Position numbers and translations under genes: made by a program. The notes beneath the pieces are model-generated. The model saw nothing but the letters and a program-made list of their open reading frames with translations. It did no database searches and was not told the DNA's origin. A DNA stretch of 64,000 nucleotides from Tsukamurella ocularis (GTDB lineage: Bacteria > Actinomycetota > Actinomycetes > Mycobacteriales > Mycobacteriaceae), in assembly GCF_024807615.1 (NCBI RefSeq), contig NZ_JANUCJ010000001.1, forward strand, positions 434,001 to 498,000. Reading direction: 5' to 3'. Below, piece after piece: positions 9,899 through 31,244 of the stretch. How positions within the stretch are numbered: position 1 is the stretch's first letter; each line of letters starts with the position of its first letter.

Positions 9899-10504
9899 TC
9901 AGCCGATAGCCCCATACAGCAACAGATCTGTGATCACTCGGGCGGACGCCTCGGGTGTCGACACATCCACGTCGTTGATCGTTCCCGCCACGATGCCCGC
10001 CACGTACGACAGCCATGCTTCGCTGACGAAGACAGGATCCAACCGCTCGTTGATCAGACCGACGTCCCGCGCCTTGTCGAGGGCTGCCCGGATGTCGGCT
10101 GCCGCTGAACGGAACAGCGTGACGTACTGCGCGAACGACTCCGCATCGACACCCGGCACCTCGAGCAACAGGAACCGGTAGGTCTCGCGGTTCTCAGCGA
10201 CTTCGGTAAGCACCGCGAGCGAGCCCTCATGGACCACTGATTCGAGCAGGTCGACGGTCACGGGCGGTTCGAGCCGGTTCAGCGCGGCACGCATCTGCGC
10301 CACCAGAGCGGACGTGTGGCGTTCGACCAGGACCGACAGCATCTGGCGCTTGCTGTCGAAATAGTTGTAGAAGGTGCCGTGGCTGACCCCGGCGCGCTCC
10401 GTGATCTCGCGAACACCGATGGTCGCGTAACCATCCTCGAGAAAAGCGGCGAGAGCAGCGTCGAGCAGTTCGGCTGCGCGGCCGGATCCCACTGGCTCCG
10501 TCAC
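9899..10504 (-). CDS. TetR/AcrR family regulator (second of a coupled pair)
   Basis: A 201-residue TetR protein. The N-terminal helix-turn-helix reads AALAAFLEDGYATIGVREITERAGVSHGTFYNYFDSK-like over residues 16-52, followed by an all-helical ligand-binding domain. Its GTG start overlaps the stop of the upstream TetR gene by four bases (GTGA), so both are made from one message. Two different TetR proteins in a coupled pair at the edge of the mce island suggests regulation of the island, possibly as a heterodimer or as two sensors. The effector is unknown. Confidence 0.87.
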   Translation of the reverse strand: MTEPVGSGRAAELLDAALAAFLEDGYATIGVREITERAGVSHGTFYNYFDSKRQMLSVLVERHTSALVAQMRAALNRLEPPVTVDLLESVVHEGSLAVLTEVAENRETYRFLLLEVPGVDAESFAQYVTLFRSAAADIRAALDKARDVGLINERLDPVFVSEAWLSYVAGIVAGTINDVDVSTPEASARVITDLLLYGAIG

Positions 10505-11205
10505 CTATTCGCCCCCTCGCGGGCGGAGTCGGATAAGATCCCGCGCCGAACCATCGTTGCGGCCGAAGCCACGAAGGCCTCGCGCTGGTCGTCCTCGCCG
10601 GTGAGTGCGAGGATGAAGCCGGGAAGAGCGAGGGTGGGCAGCAGTCGGCCCAAGACGCGACTTTCCGCTACCGGATCCGCCGTTCGGGTTCGCACCCAGT
10701 CACGCTCCCGAGCATGTTCGAGTGCGCGCCCCGCCATTCCGTCGAAGGTCTGATAGAGCCCTTGGATCCGGTAACGGAGTTCCTCGTCGACAGTGCCCGC
10801 TTGCACCAACAGCACTTTGAGGAGCTCCGGTCTGCCGTCGACCAACGCGTACAGGCGATCACCCAGCTCGGAGACGATCTTGCCGGCCTCGGTGAACTCG
10901 CCGGTCGTGGTGACGTCGAACATGTCATCCGGCGAGATGGCGGTCATGAGCTCATCGACGCACATGTCGAAAACCAGATCGAGCAACTCTCGCTTGCCGT
11001 CGACGTACCGGTACAGAGTCCCCTGACCCATCCCTGCACGCTTGGCGATGTCCCCGACCGACGCTTTCTCGTACCCCTGCTCGGCGAAGACCGAGAATGC
11101 GGCCTCGGTCAGCTCGGCGCGGCGTCGTTCGGCCAACCCGACGGAGCGCGGGCGCCCGCGGCGTGGCGCGGCGCCGGCATTCGCTTCGGACGTCAACTCG
11201 GACAT
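10501..11205 (-). CDS. TetR/AcrR family regulator (first of a coupled pair)
   Basis: A 234-residue TetR protein with a basic N-terminal arm (RRGRPRSVGLAERRR) and the helix-turn-helix FSVFAEQGYEKASVGDIAKR-AGMGQGTLYRYVDGK near residues 38-75. It is divergent from the ABC1-kinase gene at 11335. The intergenic region holds the island's shared operator motif, so it is the best candidate repressor of that regulon. The ribosome binding site is weak (GATCTCCT only). It is a paralogue of the coupled downstream TetR only in the DNA-binding region. Confidence 0.88.
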   Translation of the reverse strand: MSELTSEANAGAAPRRGRPRSVGLAERRRAELTEAAFSVFAEQGYEKASVGDIAKRAGMGQGTLYRYVDGKRELLDLVFDMCVDELMTAISPDDMFDVTTTGEFTEAGKIVSELGDRLYALVDGRPELLKVLLVQAGTVDEELRYRIQGLYQTFDGMAGRALEHARERDWVRTRTADPVAESRVLGRLLPTLALPGFILALTGEDDQREAFVASAATMVRRGILSDSAREGANR

Positions 11206-11274
11206 AGGAGATCATCTTATCCGCAGTTGGCGCAACATCGAAAACGAAACGGTGGTACTGCAGAGAGCGTCTTG

Positions 11275-11296
11275 CAATTAATCGACTGACGTATCA
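11275..11296 (+). promoter_or_regulatory. Island operator site 1, upstream of ABC1-kinase gene
   Basis: Reads CAATTA, then TCGAC, then TGACGTATCA in the direction of the downstream gene. It is one of five related sites, one per transcription unit of the island. A second, inverted element (ATACGAGTCG, 11302-11311) follows and is partly symmetrical with CGACTGACGTAT. The site lies 39 bases before the ATG at 11335, and 70 bases from the divergent TetR start. Confidence 0.6.
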
Positions 11297-11334
11297 CTAT
11301 CATACGAGTCGTGTCGAATGCGTGAGGAGCGAAC

Positions 11335-12630
11335 ATGCCGGATATCACCCGGGGAAGTACCCGCCGAACGGCGAAACTGATCAGTCTGCCGCTCGGTGCC
11401 GCGGGCCGTAACGCTGTCGGCTGGGGCAAGAAGCTCGCCGGCGCCGACAAGGCGGAGGTCAACGCCCAGCTCCAAGCACGCGCGGCCGAGCAACTGTTCG
11501 AAGTCCTGGGCGAACTCAAGGGCGGCGCGATGAAGGTCGGCCAGGCCCTCAGCGTGATGGAGGCAGCGGTTCCGGAGGAGCTGTCCGAGCCCTATCGCGA
11601 AGCTCTCGCGAAGTTGCAGAACGAGGCACCGCCAATGGCGCCGGAGGCTGTGCACAAGATGCTGACCCAGCAGCTCGGATCCGGTTGGTCCACGCGCATC
11701 GCCGAATTCGACGACACAGCGGCTGCGTCCGCGAGCATCGGCCAGGTGCATCGCGCGATCTGGCACGACGGACGTGCCGTCGCGGTCAAGGTGCAGTACC
11801 CCGGCGCCGACGAAGCCCTGCGCGCGGACCTCAAAGCGCTGAGAACGCTCAGCCACATCATGAAGCCGCTGACCCCCGGGGCCGACATAGCGTCACTCGT
11901 CGACGAGTTGACCGAACGAACCGAAGCCGAACTCGACTACCGCTACGAAGCGACCAATCAACGGATCTTCGCCAAGGCCTTTCACGAGGATCCCGACGTG
12001 CTCATCCCGAAAGTGATCGCGAGCGCACCGAAGGTACTGGTGTCCGACTGGGTCACGGGCACCCCGCTGAGGGATGTCATCACCAGTGGTCAGCAGCGTC
12101 ATCGCGACGACGCCGCGCGCAAACTGACCCAGTTCGAGCTCAGTTCCCCCAGCAGGACCGGTCTCCTGCACGGGGATCCGCACCCGGGCAACTTCATGAT
12201 CGCCGACGATGGCCGACTCATCGCCCTGGACTTCGGGGCGGTCGCTGAGTTCCCCGACGGCATCCCACCCGCCGTCGGAGCGATCCTCCGTCTGGCGCGC
12301 GACGAGCGATTCGACGAACTCACCGGCCTCCTGCGGGACGAGGGTTTCATTCCCCGGGACTATCAGATCTCGCCGGACGAGATCGAGCAGTATCTCGCGC
12401 CGTACGTAGATCCGCTGCGCAGCGAGTCCTTCCACTTCACGCGCAAGTGGCTCGCGCGCGCATCGAGTAGTGCACTCGACCCTCGAGGGGAACAATTCCG
12501 CACCGGTCGCATGCTCTCGTTGCCGCCGCAGTACCTCATGATATTTCGTGTGCTCCTCGGCGTCGTCGGCATCTGCTCGCAGATGGAGGCTGAGGCGCCG
12601 TACCGCGCGCTCATGGAGCAGTGGACCTGA
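11335..12630 (+). CDS. ABC1/UbiB (ADCK-like) atypical kinase, copy 1
   Basis: A 431-residue member of the ABC1/UbiB family. The diagnostic KxGQ motif is in GGAMKVGQALSVME. The glycine-rich loop is replaced by SASIGQV, the lysine is in VAVKVQYPG, and the catalytic and metal motifs are HGDPHPGN and LDFG. Family members act on quinone or lipid homeostasis at membranes; actinobacteria use menaquinone, so a lipid role is more likely here. GAGGAG precedes the ATG. A second, divergent copy lies at 26892-28283. The pair flank the monooxygenase and mce genes, which suggests they serve the same pathway. Confidence 0.88.
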   Translation: MPDITRGSTRRTAKLISLPLGAAGRNAVGWGKKLAGADKAEVNAQLQARAAEQLFEVLGELKGGAMKVGQALSVMEAAVPEELSEPYREALAKLQNEAPPMAPEAVHKMLTQQLGSGWSTRIAEFDDTAAASASIGQVHRAIWHDGRAVAVKVQYPGADEALRADLKALRTLSHIMKPLTPGADIASLVDELTERTEAELDYRYEATNQRIFAKAFHEDPDVLIPKVIASAPKVLVSDWVTGTPLRDVITSGQQRHRDDAARKLTQFELSSPSRTGLLHGDPHPGNFMIADDGRLIALDFGAVAEFPDGIPPAVGAILRLARDERFDELTGLLRDEGFIPRDYQISPDEIEQYLAPYVDPLRSESFHFTRKWLARASSSALDPRGEQFRTGRMLSLPPQYLMIFRVLLGVVGICSQMEAEAPYRALMEQWT

Positions 12631-12651
12631 GATCCCCGCGGCAGACGAGAA

Positions 12652-12678
12652 CGCCCCAGCCCTCGTGGGGCCGGGGCG
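12652..12678. terminator. Hairpin between convergent ABC1-kinase and small membrane protein genes
   Basis: CGCCCC at 12652-12657 pairs with GGGGCG at 12673-12678, with further pairing of GCCC and GGGC inside. It lies in the 70-base gap between two convergent stops and fits a bidirectional terminator. Confidence 0.6.
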
Positions 12679-12700
12679 CGCCCGGTACGTTCCGCCTCGA

Positions 12701-13054
12701 TCACCTCGTCATACGGTCGACCGCGAAGCGGACGATCCGTTCCGCGAGGTACACACCGTAGGCGAGCAGAGCAACGACGCCCACGGATCGGGATCTGCGC
12801 TCGATCAGTGCGAGACCGATCGCTGCCTCGGAGAGTCCGTTGACGACCACCCACTTCTCCGTCTCGTCCGGGAAGAAGGGCTTCGAGATCAATACGAAGG
12901 GCTTGGGAGCGACGAGGTGCGCCAAGCCAGACGCCGCGAGCGCGATACCGGAGACGCGCGCCAGGACGTCGAACACCGTTCCCGCCGACGACGCCGCCCA
13001 CTTCACGGTGCTCACCGCGCCCGAGACTGTGTTACGCGCCCATACGAGTGTCAT
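12701..13054 (-). CDS. Small membrane protein (DoxX-like topology)
   Basis: A 117-residue protein with three to four hydrophobic segments (around 25-50, 65-85 and 90-110) and a conserved-looking centre, GLAHLVAPKPFVLISKPFFPDETEKWVVVNG. The layout resembles DoxX-like small membrane proteins, but I cannot assign a family firmly. Its ATG overlaps the stop of the monooxygenase gene upstream by four bases, so it is the last gene of the FMO-SDR-FMO operon. It could anchor or supply electrons to these enzymes; that is inference. Confidence 0.7.
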   Translation of the reverse strand: MTLVWARNTVSGAVSTVKWAASSAGTVFDVLARVSGIALAASGLAHLVAPKPFVLISKPFFPDETEKWVVVNGLSEAAIGLALIERRSRSVGVVALLAYGVYLAERIVRFAVDRMTR

Positions 13055-14664
13055 GATCGAGCCTCCTGATTGAGATCAGCGGATAGGACGCCGGCGGGCA
13101 CCGGCAGTGGCGCGCCAGGGTTTCCCGGGGCTGCTGCGAACTCGAAATCGGACAGCGGGAAGTTCTTGCTGGCCCGTGTCGATTGGTAGGCCGTGGTGGG
13201 TCGGAGGAATCCGAAGTCGCCGTGCTTGTCGATGTAGTACGAGTTGGCATCGACGCAGGACTTCCCGTGCATCAGAGTGGCTTTGCCTCGTTCCGAGATG
13301 AAGTCGAAGAACCTATCGGTCGCTTCCGTGCTGACGGCGACCGAGGTCGCACCGCGTCGCTCCGCCTCCCCGATGACTCGGGTGATGATGCGAATAGCGT
13401 TCTCCACCATGACGTGCCAACTGCTCCCACTCCACGCGAACGGGCCGAACACCATGAAGTGATTGGGGAGCTGCGGCATGCAGACGCCCTCGTATGCGCG
13501 GGCGCGGTTGTGCTCGTAGAAGTCAGCGAGGTCGAAGCCGTCCCTGCCGCGCACGGGACGTCGACGGTACGGGTCAGGAGACTGAGACATCTCGAACCCG
13601 GTCGCCAGCACGAGGACATCGATGTCCCGGTGAACGCCGTCTCGAGTCTCGATACCGGTCTCGGTGACGCGGGCGATCGGATCGGTGACCAGATCCACGT
13701 CCGGTCTCGTGTACGTCTTGTAATAGAGGTTCGACACACTGGGCCGCTTACACCCGAACCCGTAGCCGGGCGTCAACTTCTTTCGTAGCTCACCATCGCG
13801 CACTTGGGTGAAGAGGAAGGCTCGGCACGCCCACGCCGGAATCAGCGTCAACGGAGCGATCTGCTTGCCGTACACCGTGACACCGACGAGCCCCACCTCC
13901 ACCGCACCGGCTACCAGTCCACGGACGACGGACTGAAGGACCGGCAGGACCCGGAAGGCGGTGCGTACCATCCGCGGAATCGCGAAGTCGGGTTTGGCGA
14001 ACACCCAGATGGCGCGGCGTTGGTACACATCCAGATGAGCAGCCATCCTGGCCAGCTGCGGAACGAGCTGGACCGAGGTGGCTCCCGTGCCGATCACGGC
14101 TGCCCGTTTGCCCGCGAAGTCGTAGTCGTGATCCCAGACCTGAGTCTGAATCACTTTGCCCTGGAACTTGTCGAGGCCTTCAATGTCTGGCAGTCGCGGT
14201 TCGACGAAGGCACCGAGCGCAGTCACCACGTATTTCGCCGTGACCTCATCGCCCGTTGCCAGTCGAAGCCGCCACCATTGCTTCTCCTCGTCCCACTCCC
14301 TACTGGTCACGTCGGAGTCGAACCGCAGATGCGCTTCGAGCCCGTACTTGCCCACGAGCCGCTCGATGTACTGCCGGACTTCCGCACCCTTGGGAAAGGT
14401 TCGGGACCAATCGGGATTCTTCTCGAAAGAGAACTGGTACACGATTCCCGGAACATCCACTGCAACATCCGGATAGGAGTTCGCGAGCCAGGTGCCGCCG
14501 ACTCCCGGCGCCCGCTCGAGAATGACGAAGTCGCCTATCCCGGCACGCTTGAGGCCGATACCGACTCCGAGGCCCCCGAATCCCGCTCCGATGATCGCCA
14601 CCAGATGGTCGGGCTGAGTCTTCGCGCCCGATGCCTCCCGGACCACTTTCGCCTTCCTGGCCAT
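13051..14664 (-). CDS. Flavin-containing (Baeyer-Villiger type) monooxygenase, island copy 1
   Basis: A 537-residue FAD/NADPH enzyme. The FAD-binding motif GAGFGG is at 26-31, the NADPH motif GTGATS near 193-198, and ATGFEM near residue 360. The family motif GGTWLANSYPDVAVD is present. The Baeyer-Villiger fingerprint FxGxxxHxxxW(P/D) reads FQGKVIQTQVWD, with Gln in place of the key His. Ketone-to-ester oxidation is the family reaction; the altered residue makes the exact chemistry uncertain. The start lies directly at the SDR stop (no gap), and the gene is third in its operon. Confidence 0.88.
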   Translation of the reverse strand: MARKAKVVREASGAKTQPDHLVAIIGAGFGGLGVGIGLKRAGIGDFVILERAPGVGGTWLANSYPDVAVDVPGIVYQFSFEKNPDWSRTFPKGAEVRQYIERLVGKYGLEAHLRFDSDVTSREWDEEKQWWRLRLATGDEVTAKYVVTALGAFVEPRLPDIEGLDKFQGKVIQTQVWDHDYDFAGKRAAVIGTGATSVQLVPQLARMAAHLDVYQRRAIWVFAKPDFAIPRMVRTAFRVLPVLQSVVRGLVAGAVEVGLVGVTVYGKQIAPLTLIPAWACRAFLFTQVRDGELRKKLTPGYGFGCKRPSVSNLYYKTYTRPDVDLVTDPIARVTETGIETRDGVHRDIDVLVLATGFEMSQSPDPYRRRPVRGRDGFDLADFYEHNRARAYEGVCMPQLPNHFMVFGPFAWSGSSWHVMVENAIRIITRVIGEAERRGATSVAVSTEATDRFFDFISERGKATLMHGKSCVDANSYYIDKHGDFGFLRPTTAYQSTRASKNFPLSDFEFAAAPGNPGAPLPVPAGVLSADLNQEARS

Positions 14665-15531
14665 CTAGTTCTCCCCTCCCACGATCTCCGCCTGTCTGCT
14701 GATCCGGGAGTCGTACTCGTGCCGCGCGGGTTTGTCGTACGGCGCCAGTGTGCGATCTGCGCCGAACAGACTGCGGCCGAACAACCACAGACCCTCCGGC
14801 ACTACGTGATAGATCCGCAGGAGCGGCACGGTTCCGGCCGGCGCACCGACGACGGCGGGCCGTCGCGCGAGGGTGCCGACGGCACGCCGAGCCACCACGT
14901 TCGGCGTCACGATTCCCAACCTCTCCCACCACTTGAACGGAATCCCGTCGACCAATTGCGTGCGCACGGCTGACGGCATGACCGTCGAGAGTGTGACGCC
15001 CGTGCCCACCAGTTCCTCACGAGCACTGCGAGCGAACCCAGTCGCCGCGTGTTTGGACGCGACGTAGGATGCCAGTCCAGGCGAGTGAATCGCCCCAGCG
15101 GCGGACGTGATGTTGATGATGTGACCACGTCCGCGAGCGATCATCCTGGGTGCGATCAAGCGGTACGAGTAGTAGTGCGCCCAGAAATTGACGCGCATCG
15201 TCGCCTGCGCGACGGCCAGCGGCTCCTCCAGGAGAGGCCCCACCGGCATGATTCCCGCGTTGTTGACCACGATATCGAGCGGCCCAAGGAGAGCCTCGAC
15301 CTCATCAACGAGGACTTCCAGCGCCTCGGGGTCGCCCGCGTCGAGCTCTCGCCCCACGGCACCGCGGCCGAGTCGCTCCGCCGCGCTCCGCGCCACTTCG
15401 CCGTCCAGATCGGCGATCACGACGACCGCACCCTTCTTGGCGAGCCGTTCAGCGATCGACAGACCGATACCACGGGCGCCTCCGGTGACCAGCGCTACTG
15501 CGCCGCGCGTGTCGAAGGTCTCGAACTTCAT
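14665..15531 (-). CDS. Short-chain dehydrogenase/reductase
   Basis: A 288-residue classical SDR with nucleotide-binding TGGARGIG at 16-23, NNAG near residue 90, and the catalytic set Ser-Tyr-X3-Lys in ITSAAGAIHSPGLASYVASK. The C-terminal extension of about 40 residues resembles the SadH-like enzymes found with monooxygenases in mycolic-acid bacteria. The start ATG overlaps the stop of the upstream monooxygenase by four bases. Likely role: oxidising a secondary alcohol to the ketone used by the neighbouring monooxygenases, or the reverse. Confidence 0.9.
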   Translation of the reverse strand: MKFETFDTRGAVALVTGGARGIGLSIAERLAKKGAVVVIADLDGEVARSAAERLGRGAVGRELDAGDPEALEVLVDEVEALLGPLDIVVNNAGIMPVGPLLEEPLAVAQATMRVNFWAHYYSYRLIAPRMIARGRGHIINITSAAGAIHSPGLASYVASKHAATGFARSAREELVGTGVTLSTVMPSAVRTQLVDGIPFKWWERLGIVTPNVVARRAVGTLARRPAVVGAPAGTVPLLRIYHVVPEGLWLFGRSLFGADRTLAPYDKPARHEYDSRISRQAEIVGGEN

Positions 15532-17099
15532 GCGATCGTCCTGTCTGCGAGGTCCTGTTCCACATCGGTGGAAGTGATATCGATGCCTCGGAACTCGTAC
15601 GCCGACAGATCCACGTTGCGACTCTGCTCCTTCGCCTCGAAAAGGCTCGTCGGCCTGATGTACGGCATGTCGCCGGCGGAGTTGACGTAGTAGGTTCGCA
15701 ACCCGGCATTGACCGAATTGAAGTAGTAGTCGATGTTCTCGTCGTTCCGTCGGATCTTCGCGTGATAGGCGTTGTGCGCGCCCCATTGGACCTCGGCGGA
15801 CTGTGCACCTCGTGCCATCGTCGCCTCGATCACGTTGATAGCGTGGCCGGACGAGATCTCCACGAGCTCATGCCATCCGGTACCGATCCACGAGTACGGA
15901 CCAACCAGGATCCACCGGTTCGGAAGCTGCGGCCCAGCGACCGACTGGTAGGCCTGCAACCGCTCGGAGTTGTAGAAGACTCCGAGATCGAATCCGTCTC
16001 GACCCACCACGGCCCCCTCGACGTAGCTCTCGGGATCGGAGAACAAGTGGTATCCGGTGGCGAGGACGATCGCGTCGAGTTCGAAGACACGCCCATCTCG
16101 AGTGACGATTCCCTCGGGCACGATCCGTTCGATCGGATCCGTGACCAGCTCTACGTTGTCCCGGTTGAACGCCTGGAGGAAGGAGTTCGACAGCGTCGGA
16201 CGTTTGCCCAGGAGTCCGTAGTGCGGCATCAAGCCTTGTCGTGTTCCCGGATCCCGTACCACCGCACGCAGATAGCCGCGATAGACCGTTCGGGCGACGC
16301 GGTCGAATACCGGTGCCCCTAGCCGGAACAATCTTCTCGGTGTCTGGTACACGATCCGCAGCCCTACCTCCACCACGAGATTCGCGATCAAGGACAACAG
16401 ATGCCCGGGCCCCGGCGCCGCGATGAGATTACGAATCGGTGCAGGAGTGGCGAAGTCGGGCTTGGGCAGGGCCCACACAGGCGTCCTCTGAAATACAGAG
16501 AGGGTTGCGACGGCAGGTGCGATCGAGGGCGTGATCTGCACGGAGCTAGCACCCGTGCCGATCACCGCGACACGCTTTCCGACGAGGTCATAGGTGTGAT
16601 CCCACTCGTTCGGACGAAGAACGGTGCCCGCGAACTCCTGATATCCCGGAATACCCGGATCGTCCTTCGCGGTGATGTACGCGCCGACCGCCGAAATGAC
16701 GAACTGCGCGGTGATCTCCTCACCTCCGGAGGTGGAAAGCCGCCACAGGCCGGCGGAATCGTCCCAGTTCTCTCGCTCGATCGACGTATTCCATCTCGCG
16801 TGCTGGTACAGGCCGAAACGGCTCGCCACCTCCCGGTGGTACTCGAAGACCTCGCGCCCCTTGGGGAACATGCGGGACCACTTGGGATTGCGGGCGAATG
16901 AGTACTGGTAAGTGAACCCCGGTACGTCCACCCCGAGCCCGGGATAGTGGTTATCCCGCCAGCTCCCTCCGAAATCCGAGCCGCGCTCGACGATGAGGAA
17001 GTCCGAGATACCACGACGCACGAGCTGCGCGGCGGCACAGATTCCTCCAGGACCGGCACCGATGATCACGATGCGATGTTGAGGCTGTTCAGCCATCAC
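15528..17099 (-). CDS. Flavin-containing (Baeyer-Villiger type) monooxygenase, island copy 2
   Basis: A 523-residue enzyme and first gene of the FMO-SDR-FMO-small membrane protein operon. FAD motif GAGPGG (14-19), NADPH motif GTGASS near 180, and the long family motif GGSWRDNHYPGLGVD are intact. The Baeyer-Villiger fingerprint reads FAGTVLRPNEWD, with Arg at the position of the conserved His. The ATG follows AAGGAGG. An island operator site lies 24-45 bases upstream, between a TTGACA-like hexamer and the gene. It resembles the enzyme at 28907 more than the one at 13051 (shared SDPESY and GRDGFDLG-type blocks). Confidence 0.88.
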   Translation of the reverse strand: MMAEQPQHRIVIIGAGPGGICAAAQLVRRGISDFLIVERGSDFGGSWRDNHYPGLGVDVPGFTYQYSFARNPKWSRMFPKGREVFEYHREVASRFGLYQHARWNTSIERENWDDSAGLWRLSTSGGEEITAQFVISAVGAYITAKDDPGIPGYQEFAGTVLRPNEWDHTYDLVGKRVAVIGTGASSVQITPSIAPAVATLSVFQRTPVWALPKPDFATPAPIRNLIAAPGPGHLLSLIANLVVEVGLRIVYQTPRRLFRLGAPVFDRVARTVYRGYLRAVVRDPGTRQGLMPHYGLLGKRPTLSNSFLQAFNRDNVELVTDPIERIVPEGIVTRDGRVFELDAIVLATGYHLFSDPESYVEGAVVGRDGFDLGVFYNSERLQAYQSVAGPQLPNRWILVGPYSWIGTGWHELVEISSGHAINVIEATMARGAQSAEVQWGAHNAYHAKIRRNDENIDYYFNSVNAGLRTYYVNSAGDMPYIRPTSLFEAKEQSRNVDLSAYEFRGIDITSTDVEQDLADRTIA

Positions 17100-17122
17100 T
17101 ACCTCCTTGGACTTAGAGATAC

Positions 17123-17144
17123 TGACATATCATTCACCTAATTG
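17123..17144 (-). promoter_or_regulatory. Island operator site 2, upstream of FMO-SDR operon
   Basis: On the minus strand it reads CAATTAGGTGAA then TGATATGTCA, the island motif in the same orientation to its gene as the other sites. TTGACA overlaps its 5' end and could be the -35 element, which would place the motif in the promoter spacer, a repressing position. It is 24 bases from the start codon of the monooxygenase at 17099. Confidence 0.6.
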
Positions 17145-17173
17145 TCAATGATCGAATCAGTCACTACAGCAGG

Positions 17174-20987: not shown

Positions 20988-20988
20988 C

Positions 20989-24088: not shown

Positions 24089-24091
24089 GCT

Positions 24092-24958
24092 CTACCCCGT
24101 GATCCTCACGCCGGAGTCGAATCCCCAGAACAGCAGCGTCATCACCATGTCGAGCGAGACGACGATCACCAGGCTGGCCCGAATCGCACGTCCCGCAGCG
24201 ACTCCCACGCCCTCCGGGCCACCACTGGCGTAGTAGCCCTGGTAGCTGTGAATGAGGATGACCGCGACCGCGAAGACCACCGCCTTGACCAGCGAGTAGC
24301 CCATGTCCTGCGGGGAGATGAAGGACGAGAAGTAGTGGCCGTACGTTCCCGAGGACTGTCCGTGCACCACGGAGACCATCAGCTCGCAGGTGAGGTAGCC
24401 CGCGATCAGAGTCAGGAGGTAGAGCGGCACGATGGCGACTACGCCCGCGATCACCCGGGTGGTGACGACGAAGGGTATAGGCCTGATCGCGGATGCATCC
24501 AGCGCATCGATCTCCTCCGACATGCGCATCGCACCCACTTCGGCGGTGATCCGGCAGCCCACCTGCGCCGCGAACCCGACCGCTGCGATGAGCGGTCCCA
24601 TCTCCCGGGTCGTCGCGTACGCCGCCACCAGACCGGTCAACGGCCCCATGTTCACCATGTCGAGGAGCGAGAAGCCCTGGATCGCGATCGTTCCCCCCAT
24701 GGCAACGCCGAGGAAGACGAGCACGCCCAGCATTCCGCCGCCGACGATGATGGCACCGTTGCCGAAGACCACGGCACCGATGTGGCTGAGGATGTGCTTG
24801 GGATAGGTCCTGACCGCAAACGGAACCGACCGGAGAGCAAGCATGACGAACCTCGCCTGATGGCCGAGCATCGCGAACGCCGTGACCGGCCTTCCCAACG
24901 CCGCCCCCATCGCGGTGCGCACCCGTCCCAGCCGGAACGGGACGTACGGCGCCGCCAT
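24092..24958 (-). CDS. YrbE-type Mce permease subunit B
   Basis: A 288-residue MlaE-family permease with five to six membrane segments. The conserved cytosolic coupling helix EVGAMRMSEEIDALDASAIRPI is the EExDAL motif expected to contact the MceG ATPase. Its start overlaps the yrbEA stop by one base (TGATG). With the A subunit it forms the membrane gate of the importer. Confidence 0.93.
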   Translation of the reverse strand: MAAPYVPFRLGRVRTAMGAALGRPVTAFAMLGHQARFVMLALRSVPFAVRTYPKHILSHIGAVVFGNGAIIVGGGMLGVLVFLGVAMGGTIAIQGFSLLDMVNMGPLTGLVAAYATTREMGPLIAAVGFAAQVGCRITAEVGAMRMSEEIDALDASAIRPIPFVVTTRVIAGVVAIVPLYLLTLIAGYLTCELMVSVVHGQSSGTYGHYFSSFISPQDMGYSLVKAVVFAVAVILIHSYQGYYASGGPEGVGVAAGRAIRASLVIVVSLDMVMTLLFWGFDSGVRITG

Positions 24959-25791
24959 CAGACGATGCTCCGCATCGGGAAGAACATGGTGGTCACCTGC
25001 GTCAACGCCATGTTCAGACCGAATGCTGCGACGACGCCCACGACCACCGCGGCGTTGACCGAGTCGGCGACCGCCTTCGCGCCGTGCTTGGTCTCCATGC
25101 CCCGCTGGCAGGCGACGACGGCGACCACAAGTCCGAAGATCAACGACTTGCCCACGGCGATCACAACATCCGTCATGGACGAAAACGAGGCGAACGAGGA
25201 GAGATATGACCCGGGCGCGACCCCCATGAAAGCGATCGAGATGAAGTAGCCGGTCGTCACACCCATGATGATGGCCAGGAAGCAAATCAGGGGCGCGACC
25301 CCGACCATGGCGACGATCCGCGGGGCGACGAGGCGACGGACGGGGTTGATTCCCATCGCGCGCAACGCATCGATCTCCTCGCGCATCGCCCGGGCCCCGA
25401 GATCGGACGCCACCGCGGCACCGGCCGCGCCACCCAGCAGCAGCGCGGCGACGATGGGCGCTCCCTGTTGAATCACCCCCAGGCCTCCGGCCGCCCCCGA
25501 TACGCTCGTCGCACCGACCTGCTGCGTCAGGCTGCCGACCTGCGCGGCCACGATCACCCCGAACGGGATGGAGACGAGCACTGTGGGGGTCGCGGTGACT
25601 GTGACGATGAACCAGGTCTGCTTGACGCACTCCCGCCACGAGAATCGCCTGGTCGCGATATCGACGATCGCGTAGTAGACCGCGCCCGCCGCGATCTGGA
25701 TCGCCCGGCCGAAGGTGGCGAGTGAGTCGACCACCGTCCGCGTCAGATAACTGCGGAACCGTCCCAGGACGCCGTCGATCGAGTCGATCAT
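24958..25791 (-). CDS. YrbE-type Mce permease subunit A
   Basis: A 277-residue MlaE-family permease. The coupling motif is in DLGARAMREEIDALRAMGINPV, and several Gly/Ala-rich membrane helices surround it. The start ATG overlaps the stop of the hydrolase gene upstream by four bases, so lipid hydrolase and importer are made together. No ATPase gene is present in the operon; in related bacteria MceG is encoded elsewhere and shared. Confidence 0.93.
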   Translation of the reverse strand: MIDSIDGVLGRFRSYLTRTVVDSLATFGRAIQIAAGAVYYAIVDIATRRFSWRECVKQTWFIVTVTATPTVLVSIPFGVIVAAQVGSLTQQVGATSVSGAAGGLGVIQQGAPIVAALLLGGAAGAAVASDLGARAMREEIDALRAMGINPVRRLVAPRIVAMVGVAPLICFLAIIMGVTTGYFISIAFMGVAPGSYLSSFASFSSMTDVVIAVGKSLIFGLVVAVVACQRGMETKHGAKAVADSVNAAVVVGVVAAFGLNMALTQVTTMFFPMRSIV

Positions 25792-26798
25792 GCCGCGACT
25801 CGTCTGCTGGCGCGCAGGGCGGTGCGAATGTGCTCGGTGATCGAGGCGACGGCACTGCGCGCCTCCGGGATCACATCAGCGCCGACTTGGAAGACGTGCA
25901 ACTGGCCTGGGTACACCTCCAGTGTGACTCGCACTCCTGCTGCGGCGAGGCGAGCGGCGATGTCCTCCGAGTCCGGCCGCAGGATCTCGCCACCACCGAC
26001 CTGAATGAGGGTCGGCGGAAGTCCGCGCAACTCGGCCTCCGTCGCTGACGCCGGCGTGAGCAACTTCTCGAGGGCATCCCGATCCCTCTCGGAGGCAAGG
26101 GTCATCTGCCACATCGCGTGGAGTGCACTGGCGGGGAACAGCGGATCGTTGACGCTCGCGGAGGCGAGCTTGGATGAGGGCTCGAGGTCGATGATGGGCG
26201 ACAGACATACGAGCGCACCGGGCGCCCCGAGCCCACCGTGCAGCCCTTCAAGCGCCACTCGCAGGGCGAAATATCCGCCGGCGGAGTCACCGACGACAGC
26301 GATTCTGTCCGCTGCGATGCCCGCGGTGCGGAGCCGTCGGAAGCCGTCCAAGCAATCGTCGAATGCATCGCTGACGGACGCATGAGGAAGTTTTCGATAG
26401 TTCACTGCAAGGACGGGAACACCTGTGTCACGTGCCAGTCGGGAGACCAGGCGACGATGGGAGCGCAGCCCGCCGACCAGCCAAGCACCGCCATGGAGAT
26501 AGAGGATCGCCGAATCGGATCCCGCGCCAGCGATCCGAGTGTGCTCGGCTTCGCAGTTCCGCAGGCGCACACGCGCACGTTCCACTCCGCGGACCGGCGG
26601 AAGCAGTACGGCCGCGAGATCGACCAGGAAGTACGGCCATGGAAACCGCCAGGTCTTCGACCAGATCGCAATGACCGGGCGCACCACGAACCACGAACCG
26701 GCCGTTGCCAGGCGCGCGACGACGCCCGGGCCGCCCCCCGTTCGCGTCACGACGACACCGCGACCGGATGTGATCCGTCCAGGCTCTGATGCACTCAT
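25788..26798 (-). CDS. Alpha/beta hydrolase, hormone-sensitive-lipase family (LipR-like)
   Basis: A 336-residue esterase. The oxyanion motif HGGAW and nucleophile motif GDSAGG (Ser in VGDSAGGYF) are typical of the HSL family; Asp in RPDSED and His in GQLHVF complete the triad. A hydrophobic N-terminal stretch (WPYFLVDLAAVLLPPV) may bind the membrane. It is the first gene of the mce operon, with GAGGAG before its ATG and operator site 3 upstream. Likely role: cleaving an ester or lactone formed by the monooxygenases, or freeing the import substrate. Confidence 0.9.
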   Translation of the reverse strand: MSASEPGRITSGRGVVVTRTGGGPGVVARLATAGSWFVVRPVIAIWSKTWRFPWPYFLVDLAAVLLPPVRGVERARVRLRNCEAEHTRIAGAGSDSAILYLHGGAWLVGGLRSHRRLVSRLARDTGVPVLAVNYRKLPHASVSDAFDDCLDGFRRLRTAGIAADRIAVVGDSAGGYFALRVALEGLHGGLGAPGALVCLSPIIDLEPSSKLASASVNDPLFPASALHAMWQMTLASERDRDALEKLLTPASATEAELRGLPPTLIQVGGGEILRPDSEDIAARLAAAGVRVTLEVYPGQLHVFQVGADVIPEARSAVASITEHIRTALRASRRVAA

Positions 26799-26834
26799 GT
26801 GATTCTCCTCACTTCGTCAGAAGTATAAACAGAC

Positions 26835-26855
26835 TGACGTCTCATTCGCTAATTG
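26835..26855 (-). promoter_or_regulatory. Island operator site 3, upstream of hydrolase-mce operon
   Basis: On the minus strand: CAATTAGCGAA followed by TGAGACGTCA, the island motif in the same orientation to transcription as the others. A TATACT hexamer (26821-26830 region, minus strand) lies just downstream and could be the -10 element. The site is 37 bases from the hydrolase start codon, in the 93-base gap after the second ABC1-kinase gene. Confidence 0.6.
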
Positions 26856-26891
26856 ATCGCCGGAGCTGACACCGACGGAAGGTGTCTGGGC

Positions 26892-28283
26892 TCAGTCCGA
26901 CTGTCCGGCGCGCCAGCGTTCGATCTCACGTCCCATGGACGTGGCCGGCGGAGCTAATCCGAGCACCTCGGTGGCGATGGCACGCCATGCGCCCGTCGCG
27001 CGGATCTCGCTCAACAGCGCGACGGTGGACATCTCCGTTCGCCGCCCCAGAGCATGCACCTCTTGGAGGCGCTGGCCGACGAACCGATCGTAGAAGCCAC
27101 CGTGCGGCAGCATTGCCGCCGCAATCGCGTCACGTGCGATGTCCGGGGTCAACTGCATCTCGCCGTCGCGCACGTGCCATCCCACGACTGCTTCGATGAA
27201 GTCGGCCAGGTCGTCCGCATCCATCACGTCGGGCCGGCCGATGAAGCCTCCCAGAACCGCCAATTCGTGGACTCGCTCCCGCTCTCCGGAGAGCACCGCA
27301 CCGAAGAGATCTCGCTCGTAGCGGTGATCGTCGGGCTCGAGTTCGATGCACATCCCGAAGTCGACGAAACCGACCCTGCCATCGGACAGCAACAACACGT
27401 TTCCGGGGTGCGGATCGGCGCAGAACCGCCCGGCCCGATACATCTCACCGCAGTAGAAGCGGTAGATGGCCTCGCCGATCCGATCGCGGCGCTGTTGGTC
27501 GTACTCCTTGGCAGCGGTGAACGGATCACCATCGAGGAACTCCGTGACGAGCACTCGCTCGGTGCACAGCTCGGGCACGGGCCGGGGAACCACGATCACC
27601 GGGTGACCTTCGAACTGTTCCGCGAAGTAGCTTTGATTCGCCAACTCCGAGACGAAGTCGAGCTCTGCCATCACCTGTTTGGCGATCTCTGCGCCGAGGG
27701 CATGGGCGTTCGCCGCCGGGAGGTATCGCGACAGGACCTTCATCAGCAGGCGCATGTTCTTCAGATCGGCGCGCACCATCTTGTCGATCTTCGGGTACTG
27801 CACCTTCACTGCGACGACCCGACCGTCATCGAGCATCCCGCGGTAGACCTGCCCGATCGAGGCCGAGGCGATCGGACCCTCCAGCTTCGTGATGCGCGAG
27901 CGTGCGTCGCCGAGCTCCACCTCCAACTGCCGCATCATCGCCGTGTCCGTCCATGGCGGAGCAGTGGAGAACAACGGTGCCAGGCGCTCGGCGAACTCCT
28001 TCCGCGCGCGGCGCCCCGAAATACCGATATCGACCACCGCGAGGAGCTGCCCGAGCTTCATCGCCGCGCCGCGCATGCCACCGAGGACGACCACCAGGTC
28101 GTCTGCGAGAGCAAGAATCGCAGCGTCTCGTGCCGCACGCTCCGCCTGCTCGTCACGGAAGCGCGAGCCGGCGGCGTTCGTCGCGGTACGGACTGCGTGC
28201 CGCATCGCGACACCTCCGATTTTCGCCCCGCGGCGAACCCGTCCGACCGGCAGACTCGACGAGGCGTCACCAGATTCAGCCAT
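26892..28283 (-). CDS. ABC1/UbiB (ADCK-like) atypical kinase, copy 2
   Basis: A 463-residue ABC1-family protein: KxGQ in AAMKLGQLLAVV, ASASIGQV in the loop, lysine in VAVKVQYPK, then CADPHPGN and VDFGMC. Compared with copy 1 it has a longer N-terminal basic region (RRGAKIGGVAMRHAVRTA). A strong GAAGGAGG precedes the ATG. It is downstream of, and in line with, the FMO-SRPBCC pair at 28320-30493, 36 bases away, so it may be read from operator site 4. Function in lipid or cofactor metabolism is inferred from family and context. Confidence 0.88.
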   Translation of the reverse strand: MAESGDASSSLPVGRVRRGAKIGGVAMRHAVRTATNAAGSRFRDEQAERAARDAAILALADDLVVVLGGMRGAAMKLGQLLAVVDIGISGRRARKEFAERLAPLFSTAPPWTDTAMMRQLEVELGDARSRITKLEGPIASASIGQVYRGMLDDGRVVAVKVQYPKIDKMVRADLKNMRLLMKVLSRYLPAANAHALGAEIAKQVMAELDFVSELANQSYFAEQFEGHPVIVVPRPVPELCTERVLVTEFLDGDPFTAAKEYDQQRRDRIGEAIYRFYCGEMYRAGRFCADPHPGNVLLLSDGRVGFVDFGMCIELEPDDHRYERDLFGAVLSGERERVHELAVLGGFIGRPDVMDADDLADFIEAVVGWHVRDGEMQLTPDIARDAIAAAMLPHGGFYDRFVGQRLQEVHALGRRTEMSTVALLSEIRATGAWRAIATEVLGLAPPATSMGREIERWRAGQSD

Positions 28284-28319
28284 CCCGCGCCCTCCTTCGT
28301 CGCGAATTCTATCGAGCGA

Positions 28320-28910
28320 TCACCGAATGCGGCGGCGCTCCGAGACCTCGCCACCGACCATGCGAACTTCGCGCGCACCCCCGTCGCCGACCTCCCTGCG
28401 GACGCCCCGAAGACCGAACCTGAGGACCGGAGTCAGAAGCCTGGAGAGCCACCTGGCGGGAAGCCAACCGACAAACCTCGGCCGGACTCCCATGCGCCAC
28501 ACCAACCGCGAGCCGGCCCCCACCGGCTCGATGCGGTAGTCCTCGAGCCAGGTTCCGAAGAACGGCAGAGTGGCGTCGGTGGCCGTGTACATCATCCTGC
28601 GGCCCGGCTCGACGTGAATGATTCGCTCCCGCTGCGCGTAGACGAGCCAGTGATGGACGTACATCTGGAAGTCGCGGACCACTCCGGGCTCGACGCCGGC
28701 CCCCTCCGGGTAACGACAACCCCACACGGTGGGGAGCCACGACCACATCCGATCACTGGAGACGACTCCCCAGAGTTGGTCGGGAGTCAGGTCAGGGAAC
28801 TCGTAGGACACCTTGGCCAGGAACGGGGCTGCTGAGAAGAAGCGCTCCGCATCGTCGACCGCGACCGGCTCCGTGGCACGGAACCTCAGCAAAGCGAAAG
28901 GCTGCATCAC
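28320..28910 (-). CDS. SRPBCC family lipid-binding protein, copy 1
   Basis: A 196-residue START/Bet v1-like (SRPBCC) protein. The fold is suggested by the N-terminal strand-helix SYEFPDLTPDQLWGVVSS, the central strand RMMYTATDATLPFFGTWLEDYRIEP-like, and the C-terminal long helix. The ending RFVGWLPARWLSRLLTPVLR matches the end of the protein at 30678 (RWIDWFPLRWTAFLARPAMR). GTG at 28910 overlaps the monooxygenase stop (GTGA); the next codon is ATG. Likely role: carrying or presenting a hydrophobic intermediate. Confidence 0.75.
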   Translation of the reverse strand: MMQPFALLRFRATEPVAVDDAERFFSAAPFLAKVSYEFPDLTPDQLWGVVSSDRMWSWLPTVWGCRYPEGAGVEPGVVRDFQMYVHHWLVYAQRERIIHVEPGRRMMYTATDATLPFFGTWLEDYRIEPVGAGSRLVWRMGVRPRFVGWLPARWLSRLLTPVLRFGLRGVRREVGDGGAREVRMVGGEVSERRRIR

Positions 28911-30493
28911 GCCACCGTGCCCGGTGCCGCGACGGCCGCCGCCTGAGTCTGTGCCGTCGTGATCGACTCGTATCGATAGTCATCGCGATCGAATCCTGTA
29001 CTGCGTCGATACGATTGGAGCAGCGTCCACGGACGAACGTAGACGGCCTGCTTCTGCGAGTTGACGAAATAGGTGTTCGACCCGGCGCAGTGCACGTTGA
29101 AGTAGTGGTTCAGATTGGCCCCCTTCGTCACCATGTCCTTGTGGAACGCCTCCTGCGCACCGATCCGGACCTCGACCTTGGTCGCTCCCCGCGTGCGCGC
29201 TTCGGCCAACACCGACGAGATGTGTCGGATCGCGTTCTCGAGGATGTAGTGAAATGCCGTTCCGGTCCAGGAGTAGGGACCGACCATCAGCCATCGATTC
29301 GGTAGACCGGCGACCGATGTCGAGTGGTACGCCCGCAAGCCTTCGTCGTTGTAGTACACCCCCAGGTCGAACCCATCGGCCCCGACCACCGCTCCTTCCC
29401 GGTACGACTCAGGATCGGAGAACATCTCGTACCCGGTGGCGAGCACGAGTAGATCTGCCGGGTGACGCACCCCGTCGGCGGTCACGATCGCATCTCGCTC
29501 GATCCGCGCGATCGATGTCGTGTGCAGCTCCACGTTACGCCGATTGAAAACCGCGAGGTAGCCTCCGCCGAGGGTGCCCCGCGTACAACCGGCGCCGTAC
29601 GCGGGCCTCAACTTGCGGCGGGTCTCCTTGTCCCGGACACAGATCCACATCCAGAGGTCGTACAGACTATGCGCGCCGTGATCGAATCGCCGAGCGCCGA
29701 ATCCGAAGAGCCTGCCCGGCGTGTAGATCAAAACACGCAGCGCCACGTCCACGAACGCCAATGCCGAACCGTGGAGCAGGCCGGCCAGCCCCGGCACTCG
29801 GAGCAGCTGTTGCAGCCATCGAGGGTTGCGGAAGTCGGGCTTGGGGAAGTACCACTGCGGGGTCCGCTGGTAGATGTCGAGATGTGCCGCCCGCTCAGCG
29901 AGCGCCGGCGCGATCTGCACAGCGCTCGACCCGACACCGATCATCGCAGCGCGAATACCCGAGTAGTCGAACTCGTCGTCCCAGTCCGACGGGATCATCA
30001 CCTTCCCCTCGAAGTCTTCAAGACCTGGGATGTCCGGCTTGTCCTTCGGATTGATGTACGCACCCACCGCGCTGATGACGAACCGGCCGGTGATCTGCGA
30101 GCCGTCGTCGATGTGGAGGCGCCACAGGTGAGCCGCTTCGTCCCACTCTTCACGAACGATCGTGGTGTTCAGACGAACCTTGCGATCGAGCCCGGCGTCG
30201 CGCGCGAGACCGACGTGGTATTCCTGAATCTCGCCGCCTTTCGCGAAGAAGTGCGACCAGTCGGCCTTCGGTGCGAACGAGAACTGGTACGCGAGGAAGG
30301 GCAGATCCGCGCCGACATTGGGGTACGTGTTCGCCCGCCACGTCCCGCCCATCGCCGGAGCGCGATCCACCAGCACGAAGTCATGAATCCCGATCTCCTG
30401 CAGCTTGATACCTGCGCAGATACCTCCTGCTCCCGCGCCGATTACCACGACCTCGTAGTCGGGCTGAGGCCATTCCGAGCTGTCGTCGACCAT
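28907..30493 (-). CDS. Flavin-containing (Baeyer-Villiger type) monooxygenase, island copy 3
   Basis: A 528-residue enzyme. FAD motif GAGAGG near residue 17, NADPH motif GVGSSA near 185, long family motif GGTWRANTYPNVGAD. The Baeyer-Villiger fingerprint reads FEGKVMIPSDWD, with Ile where His is conserved. SDPESYREGAVVGADGFDLG is shared almost word for word with the enzyme at 15528. It leads its own operon with the SRPBCC gene, behind operator site 4. The three island copies differ enough to suggest different substrates rather than recent duplication. Confidence 0.88.
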   Translation of the reverse strand: MVDDSSEWPQPDYEVVVIGAGAGGICAGIKLQEIGIHDFVLVDRAPAMGGTWRANTYPNVGADLPFLAYQFSFAPKADWSHFFAKGGEIQEYHVGLARDAGLDRKVRLNTTIVREEWDEAAHLWRLHIDDGSQITGRFVISAVGAYINPKDKPDIPGLEDFEGKVMIPSDWDDEFDYSGIRAAMIGVGSSAVQIAPALAERAAHLDIYQRTPQWYFPKPDFRNPRWLQQLLRVPGLAGLLHGSALAFVDVALRVLIYTPGRLFGFGARRFDHGAHSLYDLWMWICVRDKETRRKLRPAYGAGCTRGTLGGGYLAVFNRRNVELHTTSIARIERDAIVTADGVRHPADLLVLATGYEMFSDPESYREGAVVGADGFDLGVYYNDEGLRAYHSTSVAGLPNRWLMVGPYSWTGTAFHYILENAIRHISSVLAEARTRGATKVEVRIGAQEAFHKDMVTKGANLNHYFNVHCAGSNTYFVNSQKQAVYVRPWTLLQSYRRSTGFDRDDYRYESITTAQTQAAAVAAPGTVA

Positions 30494-30546
30494 CTCGTCT
30501 CCATCCTGTGATGCTCACTGTCGATGAGCATGAACCTAGCTTCGAC

Positions 30547-30568
30547 TGACACGTCAGTCGACTAATTG
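30547..30568 (-). promoter_or_regulatory. Island operator site 4, upstream of FMO-SRPBCC operon
   Basis: TGACACGTCA with flanks forms the most symmetrical copy of the motif: TCGACTGAC and GTCAGTCGA are perfect nine-base arms around AC (30542-30561). On the minus strand it is preceded by CAATTAG, as at sites 1 to 3. It lies 54 bases from the monooxygenase start and 34 bases from site 5. Confidence 0.68.
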
Positions 30569-30591
30569 CTCCTCCAGCTTGCATGGGATCA

Positions 30592-30611
30592 GTTTAGTGA
30601 TTGACGTCTCA
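30592..30611 (+). promoter_or_regulatory. Island operator site 5, upstream of second SRPBCC gene
   Basis: TGACGTCTCA at 30602-30611, followed by GTCG and preceded by GTTTAGTGAT, is the island motif facing the plus-strand gene at 30678. It is the weakest match in the CAATTA block. A further GTCAGT at 30641-30646 may be a degenerate half-site. Confidence 0.52.
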
Positions 30612-30677
30612 GTCGTTGAATGATTTGATCTTACTCACAAGTCAGTTCGTTGCAGTCGCACCCTCAGGGAGTAGCCC

Positions 30678-31244
30678 GTGAACCAGCAACTCGTCCTCGC
30701 CACGGCGGCAGTCGCACTCGTCGCCGTCGTCCTCGGCGCCATCGTCCTCGCCGTTCTCGCCGCGGGCTCGGGAGGGCCACGGCGATTCGCTCTTCGCCGC
30801 CCCGAGCGGGCCGTCGACACCTACATAGACAGGGACGCGTCCTGGGCGGCGGCCGTTACCGCCGAGTCCTCCCAGTCGGCGGACGCCGTCTTCGCACTGG
30901 TCACCGAGCGGCCGTACCTCGGCCGGATCCCCTTCGTCGAAGGCCCGAATCCTCGGTCGGACGGACGGCGTGTCACCAGGACGCCGATCCTGGCCTTCGA
31001 AGAAGACGTGATGGACCAGCAGCGTCGGGTGCATACGACGGTCGGCACGGGCATCTCGGTCCCCCTCGTCATCGCTTCGTTCGCCCAGCGATTCCGAATC
31101 GAGGAGGGCGCCAACGGGTGCCGAGTCGAATGGGCGATCGCAGTGACTCCTCGGTGGATCGACTGGTTCCCACTTCGGTGGACCGCGTTCCTCGCACGGC
31201 CGGCGATGCGCATCGCACTGGGATGGATCCTGCGCGGAGCCTGA
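30678..31244 (+). CDS. Membrane-anchored SRPBCC-like protein, copy 2
   Basis: A 188-residue protein with an N-terminal membrane helix (about 6-28) and a soluble domain that resembles SRPBCC proteins (TAESSQSADAVFALVTER, RFRIEEGANGCRVEWAIAV). Its C terminus is alike in pattern to the SRPBCC protein at 28320. The GTG start follows AGGGAG by six bases. It is divergent from the third monooxygenase and has its own operator site. A role in handling membrane-associated lipid is inferred. Confidence 0.7.
   Translation: MNQQLVLATAAVALVAVVLGAIVLAVLAAGSGGPRRFALRRPERAVDTYIDRDASWAAAVTAESSQSADAVFALVTERPYLGRIPFVEGPNPRSDGRRVTRTPILAFEEDVMDQQRRVHTTVGTGISVPLVIASFAQRFRIEEGANGCRVEWAIAVTPRWIDWFPLRWTAFLARPAMRIALGWILRGA

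Follow-up and report, generated by a model that had tools for sequence, protein, structure and literature searches.

Does the block of lipid-related genes at positions 9899-31244 of a 64,000-nucleotide stretch of Tsukamurella ocularis DNA (contig NZ_JANUCJ010000001.1, positions 434,001 to 498,000; hereafter the window) form one system, or have independent modules come to lie side by side? This island of about 21 kb carries a complete yrbE-mce operon headed by a hydrolase of the hormone-sensitive lipase (HSL) type, three flavin monooxygenases labelled BVMO1 to BVMO3 after Baeyer-Villiger monooxygenases (BVMO), a short-chain dehydrogenase/reductase (SDR), two ABC1/UbiB-type ATPases (ABC1a and ABC1b), two SRPBCC-like proteins (SRP1 and SRP2) and a pair of TetR-family genes (Table 1). 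Mce complexes move hydrophobic lipids, SRPBCC proteins bind hydrophobic ligands, and TetR proteins are mostly ligand-released repressors. A previous sequence-only reading had proposed a single undescribed lipid import-and-oxidation system. Conserved linkage and a shared palindrome speak for this proposal; its chemistry, its count of two kinases and its substrate class (terpenoid, steroid ring or wax, for which there is no direct evidence) found no support. We favour, with moderate confidence, the reading of the island as a single regulon for lipid import and oxidation, induced by its substrate.

The gene-neighbourhood comparison, the test suggested by the sequence-only reading itself, revealed a linkage conserved at nine loci belonging to six genus codes, which favours one system. 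A first contig scan with MceC returned no relatives, and a contig scan with an alignment of BVMO2 yielded 14 loci. The set, taken as an mce operon with ABC1b-like, HSL and SDR genes and at least two flavin monooxygenases, is present in the window, in G375, G256, G057 and G314, in G042:C24, and in G364, G207 and G056; the named hosts are Gordonia effusa, G. araii, G. hirsuta and Antrihabitans stalactiti. Identity to the window proteins is about 40-84% in the four Gordonia (a few extra paralogs are lower), 26-71% in Antrihabitans and 27-60% in G207 and G056, two further genus codes with only distant similarity, in which several SDRs and several flavin monooxygenases accompany the mce, ABC1b-like and HSL genes. 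The G364 locus contains the enzymes, the kinase, the TetR pair and the palindrome, with a more distant mce operon. Orthologs of BVMO1 with at least 57% identity occur at 13 places in 401 genomes of the family (the next match has 53%); the SDR gene is adjacent or within 4 kb at 10 of them, an mce operon lies within 20 kb at nine, and ABC1b is found at eight, the same eight that carry the TetR pair.

The units do not occur only together, since ABC1b, BVMO1, BVMO2 and the enzyme set are each found elsewhere without mce or without the set. BVMO1 stands without the set at G061:C43 and G015:C12, and BVMO2 does so in Segniliparus, where pieces of the set are scattered. Among 20 regions compared around 19 places with ABC1b-like genes, which include those of G207 and G056, G156 has ABC1b, the TetR pair and mce without monooxygenases, G059, G131, G092 and G104 have ABC1b and TetR genes without mce, and the other 12 places lack the set, apart from at most a distant BVMO, SDR or HSL match. 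Given this recurrence at nine loci and the separate occurrence of its units, the gene set is both recurrent and modular.

The Mce clade of the window is itself linked to the ABC1b kinase. Among the matches listed, an ABC1b-like gene lies within 20 kb of seven of the nine best MceC places (at least 179 bits, 151 genomes) versus two of the next 83 (Fisher 1.4e-7; six of eight and 1.1e-6 when the window is left out). ABC1b and ABC1a score above the cut-off of PF03109, and the KxGQ, VAVK and DFG motifs of the ABC1/UbiB family are kept in ABC1b. The nearest solved relatives of ABC1b are MABP-1 (5yjz) and the ABC1 family protein 7cy2, followed by COQ8; for ATPases of the COQ8 type, a role in drawing hydrophobic precursors out of membranes has been proposed (PMC8346625). 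ABC1a resembles Rv3197/MABP-1 (NF050082, 566.8 bits, below the cut-off of 800) and shares 74% identity with a second copy elsewhere in this genome (C4). Because it was the best match at none of the other clusters, we treat ABC1a as a probable passenger or accessory outside the conserved set, so that the two kinases previously counted in the system reduce to one. Two loci with ABC1b-like kinases stand out. One, that of G156 in another species of the genus (L193, G156:C3, 9738-19899), has a second such kinase (45%), next to which lie a TetR pair and an mce operon but no monooxygenase genes; the other (L045, G061:C23, 5832-19726) combines an mce operon, a secretory lipase, an AMP-binding enzyme, an ABC1b-like kinase and three palindromes matching at 11 or 12 positions.

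The palindrome, GACTGA-N4-TCAGTC, is the pattern on which inverted repeats from the intergenic regions of several clusters agree, and would be the operator of the island. Five sites (Table 1) all fall in the 622 noncoding bases of the island, where about 0.01 would be expected; a sixth match in the window, at 49992, lies outside the island. Nine of 100 shuffled windows also reach six matches, so that the number of sites means little by itself and their placement in noncoding DNA is the unlikely part. The genome (4.3 Mb) contains 61 places within two mismatches versus 35 for the reversed control pattern, and three of its nine places with no or one mismatch are in the island; the other genomes of the genus have one to seven strand-wise matches within one mismatch per genome, versus zero to four for the reversed control. 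When the 500 bp upstream of yrbEA, and of the HSL gene where close, were scanned, a site matching at least 10 of 12 positions preceded the mce head at 10 of 12 loci of this Mce clade versus one of 14 other mce loci, the lone positive being the set-bearing G364. In 33 control loci (630 kb), 23 of 32 sites matching at 10 or more positions, and 15 of 16 matching at 11 or more, belong to set-bearing or clade loci (L043-L047, L105-L107). Sites without the set precede BVMO2 in Segniliparus (11/12, 154 bp upstream; L104) and in Gordonia UBA7599 (L108). The TetR pair would most likely be what binds the palindrome. Mce3R (9b7y) ranks second in the lists of Protein Data Bank (PDB) matches of both TetR1 and TetR2.

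Two mce operons of the same clade (L044 and L046, in G133 and G065) also combine an exact palindrome with a TetR pair. The first also encodes an oxidoreductase of the pyridine-nucleotide (ferredoxin-reductase-like) kind and a fatty-acid-desaturase-like enzyme, which may form a further oxidation module under the same switch. In L201 (G026:C55) an exact palindrome at 18122 lies about 7.6 kb from an ABC1b-like gene, and mce is absent from the stretch.

Several observations weigh against a single regulon. Gordonia G299 has the enzymes, the kinase and the TetR pair with no mce gene in 40 kb, and no mce gene is present in the 16-kb stretch examined of Gordonia UBA7599. The same Mce type occurs in G133 and G065, where the surrounding 25 kb contain no ABC1b-like gene, and the limit of 179 bits for the MceC places was picked after the list had been seen. 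The palindrome was first spotted in the same intergenic regions in which it was then counted, which makes the count in the window partly circular and the comparison of 12 with 14 mce loci less so; in that comparison the HSL-headed loci had two stretches scanned, and two of the 12 clade loci have no site. The sets of G207 and G056 have neither a site matching at 11 or more positions nor a match to the TetR pair. The TetR pair is kept in 11 of the 15 other genus genomes; nine of these have no site of at least 10/12 in the fetched stretch, and in the remaining two (L089, 10/12; L093, 11/12) the sole near-gene site is at the 3' end of TetR1 and not in a promoter gap. This pattern, a near-match beside TetR1 in two genomes with the small state of the locus and none in the other nine with the pair, makes the identity of the regulator less certain. 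No MceG-type ATPase turned up in the island, the only part of the genome searched for one.

A rival reading is a chance neighbourhood, in which independent modules came together at the thiG locus and the TetR-TetR-ABC1b trio is the older resident. Ten of the 15 other genus genomes have the trio alone here, and several units live separately elsewhere; such an origin hardly accounts for the same set at nine loci and six genus codes, for a palindrome common to the gaps of apparently separately transcribed units or for the clade-specific association of Mce with ABC1b, and we regard it as very improbable indeed.

All three monooxygenases belong to class B of the flavin enzymes. Their best NCBIfam model is PtlE, far under its cut-off, and BVMO2, the only one of the three searched against the PDB, has cyclohexanone monooxygenase as best match. 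The hallmark of type I BVMOs, FxGxxxHxxxW[PD] (PMC4498894, PMC9044951), which can be degenerate (PMC9044951), lacks its His in all three enzymes, being replaced by Gln, Arg and Ile in BVMO1, BVMO2 and BVMO3, respectively. These residues recur in the 11 BVMO1 sequences compared (Gln), in nine BVMO2 sequences and seven distant relatives from Nocardia, Rhodococcus and Mycobacterium (L111-L117; Arg), and in five BVMO3 orthologs (Ile). Two BVMO1 relatives of 57-58% identity do not match the fingerprint pattern; paralogs have Val, Tyr or Arg at 47-50% identity and His when more distant (34-42%). In G207 and G056 the BVMO1-like enzymes have His and the BVMO2-like ones Arg, and the BVMO3-like enzyme of G207 has Tyr. 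The first Rossmann motif, GxGxx[GA], is present in all three window enzymes, and the second reads GTGATS, GTGASS and GVGSSA, a strict fit to the same pattern only in BVMO3. BVMO2 fits the fingerprint [AG]GxWxxxx[FY]P[GM]xxxD, in which BVMO1 has P-D and BVMO3 P-N at the G/M position. Both residues of the catalytic Asp/Arg dyad defined in PMC9044951 are kept: the Asp of [AG]GxWxxxx[FY]P[GM]xxxD is invariant in five aligned sequences, the KRP of BVMO2 aligns with that of TmCHMO, and KRP or TRG occupies the aligned place in BVMO1 and BVMO3. The absence of the fingerprint His despite the kept dyad leaves the Baeyer-Villiger label given previously unproven, and such chemistry is possible, not established. 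Gordonia effusa has an extra monooxygenase paralog adjoining its cluster (L118, 11590-13098), which carries Val in place of the fingerprint His and has no KRP or TRG match; the enzyme of this species that was grouped with BVMO3 in the motif comparison is not a BVMO3 ortholog but a different paralog (Val).

In the regulon that we favour, a TetR-type regulator, most likely the adjacent pair, would bind GACTGA-N4-TCAGTC and repress the island promoters; either the lipid or one of its breakdown products would be the ligand that ends this repression. Import would follow, with the Mce complex bringing a hydrophobic molecule to the inner membrane or across it. As a UbiB/COQ8-type ATPase, ABC1b may help to lift this molecule out of the membrane, and the SRPBCC proteins could carry it to the soluble enzymes, where the SDR and the three flavin monooxygenases would oxidise it stepwise and the HSL hydrolase would cleave an ester, either imported or formed on the way. 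The sequences show the genes, their conserved linkage, the common palindrome and the tie between this Mce clade and ABC1b; we infer the operator function of the palindrome, the regulator that binds it, the direction of transport, the order of reactions, the roles of ABC1b and the SRPBCC proteins and the substrate. The same proteins could instead serve the cell envelope, the operon retrieving or modifying the cell's own outer lipids and the oxygenases, SDR and hydrolase tailoring them in the manner supposed for mymA of M. tuberculosis. Mutants of ethA and mymA indicate roles in lipid or mycolic-acid metabolism and the cell envelope (PMC9044951), and family scans of the island proteins found no acyl-CoA ligase, thiolase or acyl-CoA dehydrogenase, which is in line with this possibility. 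We nevertheless consider it unlikely: a BVMO1 ortholog is present in only one of the 16 genomes of the genus in the collection (that of the window included), which would make the set dispensable for the envelope of the genus, and the G061 locus joins this Mce type and an ABC1b-like gene to a secretory lipase and an AMP-binding enzyme, a combination that resembles a nutrient pathway. A role in detoxification or antibiotic tolerance, with kinases binding macrolactone-like or toxic lipids, oxygenases and hydrolase degrading them and TetR proteins sensing them, would agree with the resemblance of ABC1a to MABP-1, which binds erythromycin (PMC6208485), and with TetR control, typical of drug responses. 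We judge this role highly unlikely, as ABC1a was the best match at none of the other clusters and a full importer would be odd in it.

Pfam and NCBIfam scans recovered all the gene classes previously named in the island, including the TetR pair, the three monooxygenases, the SDR, the HSL hydrolase and yrbEAB-mceABCDEF, with the exception of the mam gene, which has the right position and same-spot matches in other clusters and no family match (Table 1). Two MlaE-type permeases followed by six MCE/MlaD proteins correspond to the actinobacterial Mce layout. Of the two SRPBCC proteins announced, SRP1 is above the Pfam cut-off and SRP2 falls just below it, with matches close to the clusters of G. 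araii, G314 and G299. A predicted model of SRP1, used at medium confidence for fold class only, matches Bet v 1-type folds (mean predicted local distance difference test score, pLDDT, 65.6; five sequences). The orfX gene had been overlooked; neither its product nor the Mam-like protein has a Pfam match at E up to 1. Relatives of orfX, with invariant residues such as H46, N72, G73 and E76, occur near several of these clusters and near other mce loci.

Table 1. Genes and candidate operator sites of the island (positions in the window; site scores are matches to the 12 consensus positions; ORF, open reading frame).
Feature	Position	Strand	Basis or remark
TetR1, TetR-family regulator, second of pair	9899..10504	-	PF00440 54.1 bits
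TetR2, TetR-family regulator, first of pair	10501..11205	-	PF00440 54.3 bits; overlaps TetR1
Candidate operator GACTGACGTATCACTA	11284..11299		TetR2/ABC1a gap; 10/12
ABC1a, ABC1/UbiB-type ATPase, MABP-1 (Rv3197) type	11335..12630	+	PF03109 197.6 bits
orfX, 117-aa membrane-type small protein	12701..13054	-	relatives in several related clusters; no family
BVMO1, class B flavin monooxygenase	13051..14664	-	family scans, motifs; fingerprint His to Gln
SDR, short-chain dehydrogenase/reductase	14665..15531	-	PF00106 158 bits (longer ORF); TGGARGIG, YVASK motifs; ATG at 15531
BVMO2, class B flavin monooxygenase	15528..17099	-	family scans, motifs; fingerprint His to Arg
Candidate operator TACTGACATATCATTC	17120..17135		ahead of BVMO2-SDR-BVMO1 operon (BVMO2/Mam gap); 10/12
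Mam-like (Mce-associated) protein	17174..17899	-	position, same-spot matches in other clusters
MceF	17900..18847	-	PF02470 44.6 bits
MceE	18844..19860	-	PF02470 53.1 bits
MceD	19857..20987	-	PF02470 43.9 bits (longer ORF); GTG at 20987 taken as start
MceC	20989..22044	-	PF02470 54.8 bits
MceB	22041..23045	-	PF02470 55.9 bits, PF11887 44.4 bits
MceA	23042..24088	-	PF02470 41.3 bits
YrbEB permease	24092..24958	-	PF02405 197.9 bits (longer ORF); ATG at 24958
YrbEA permease	24958..25791	-	PF02405 194.4 bits; nearest solved chain YrbE1A of 8fed
HSL-type alpha/beta hydrolase, head of mce operon	25788..26798	-	Abhydrolase_3 PF07859 166.8 bits; GDSAG
Candidate operator GACTGACGTCTCATTC	26832..26847		ahead of HSL-yrbE-mce operon; 11/12
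ABC1b, ABC1/UbiB-type ATPase of conserved set	26892..28283	-	PF03109 185.5 bits; KLGQ, VAVK, DPHPGN, DFG motifs
SRP1, SRPBCC (START-like) protein	28320..28910	-	PF10604 55.7 bits, cut-off 27.4
BVMO3, class B flavin monooxygenase	28907..30493	-	family scans, motifs; fingerprint His to Ile
Candidate operator GACTGACACGTCAGTC	30544..30559		BVMO3/SRP2 gap; exact
Candidate operator GATTGACGTCTCAGTC	30599..30614		BVMO3/SRP2 gap; 11/12
SRP2, SRPBCC-like, hydrophobic N-terminal stretch	30678..31244	+	PF10604 25.7 bits, E 1.6e-5

The island is sharply bordered. Its G+C content is 64.3% (9886-31259) versus 70.5% to the left and 71.6% to the right within the window, its G+C content at third codon positions is 0.73-0.88 versus 0.88-0.94 in most genes of the flanks (up to 36 kb), and alignments with other genomes of the genus end at about 9850 and 31296. 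At the thiG locus of the other 15 genomes of the genus (L089-L103), 10 have TetR-TetR-ABC1b only, between the gene of the major facilitator superfamily (MFS) and thiG, a minimal module without mce; one has the TetR pair only and four have no island genes. The flanks are 30 bp apart in one genome with the empty locus, and the MFS flank gene is likewise unmatched in two of these four (L102 and L103). Matches to BVMO1 in these 15 genomes do not go beyond E 2e-132, which is where paralogs of 41-43% identity score. G+C content alone is weakened as proof of transfer by three other mce loci of the genome at 65.5-68.6%. The stronger argument comes from the TetR pair and ABC1b, which have 65-66% G+C in the window versus 72-73% in three relatives measured, and mostly 67-74% nucleotide identity to the relatives (82% for one 158-bp piece) versus mostly 76-95% for pieces of the flanks. 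In a quick tree with support from the Shimodaira-Hasegawa-like approximate likelihood ratio test only, the ABC1b of the window lies beside, and outside, the clade of the ten native copies as sister to all of them (support 97 for the joint group and 90 for the natives), followed outwards by the Gordonia copies and then by those of Antrihabitans, G364 and G061. From these data we infer that the locus was probably replaced by an allele from a sister lineage bearing the full set; alternatively, the island may be ancestral and lost from the other genomes of the genus, and the TetR-TetR-ABC1b state is plausible as a remnant of a full island. Entry by an integrase, at a tRNA gene or between flanking repeats was rejected: the window has no tRNA gene, the longest exact repeat shared by the flanks is 10 bp and inverted, and no integrase or transposase family was detected among the scanned proteins of the island and near flanks. 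Homologous replacement is therefore the better guess. In the left flank, the stretches at about 2035-2811 and 3543-4325 each have an additional match in same-genus loci (about 70-75% nucleotide identity), suggestive of a tandem duplication.

Known systems resemble the island in part. Ubiquinone biosynthesis with UbiB/COQ8 also brings together a UbiB-family ATPase, START-fold proteins and flavin monooxygenases whose substrate is a membrane lipid; its monooxygenases are of another class and the island has an importer instead of a biosynthetic pathway, making the parallel a functional one only. The mymA operon of Mycobacterium tuberculosis likewise groups a flavin monooxygenase, an HSL-type hydrolase and an SDR, but is not known to include mce, ABC1 or SRPBCC genes; it has an AraC-type VirS regulator and the adhD, tgs4 and fadD13 genes, and none of these four families was found among the scanned island proteins. 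MymA passes the type I BVMO fingerprints (PMC9044951), whereas none of the three island enzymes passes them all. The cholesterol importer mce4 has the same yrbEAB-mceA-F order, and MceB of the island matches the Mce4_CUP1 family; MceA, however, resembles Mce4A only weakly (E 2.8e-4), as it does the Mce chain of 8fed (3.7e-4), and no steroid-ring degradation genes were found in the island. The mce3 locus of M. tuberculosis also joins an Mce operon and lipid genes to a regulator made of two different TetR units (PMC11667970). Mce3R is described there as one fused protein with a non-palindromic 25-bp site, whereas the island has two separate TetR genes and a palindromic candidate site. MmGI-1 of M. 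massiliense, a proposed horizontally acquired island, carries an mce operon and lipid genes too, but has beta-oxidation genes, and the words monooxygenase and ABC1 are absent from the main text of its description (PMC4263727). In the open-licence PubMed Central literature, judged by titles, term counts and the starts of abstracts and with subscription papers outside this scope, we found no description of an mce operon with Baeyer-Villiger or ABC1 genes.

To our knowledge, how Mce systems hand lipids over to cytoplasmic enzymes and what bacterial ABC1/UbiB proteins do outside quinone synthesis are both open questions. We tentatively propose, as a rather doubtful extension of the regulon, an Mce clade that works with its own UbiB/COQ8-type ATPase and with START-fold carriers, which would take the imported lipid out of the membrane and pass it to non-canonical, His-less flavin monooxygenases, all under one palindromic operator. 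If true, ATP would drive a lipid hand-over step after Mce import, and bacteria would have a counterpart to the arrangement of COQ8, carrier and hydroxylase. Both questions become testable with this conserved cassette, in which one ABC1 kinase is tied to an Mce clade, a candidate operator is defined and the carriers include sequenced Gordonia species.

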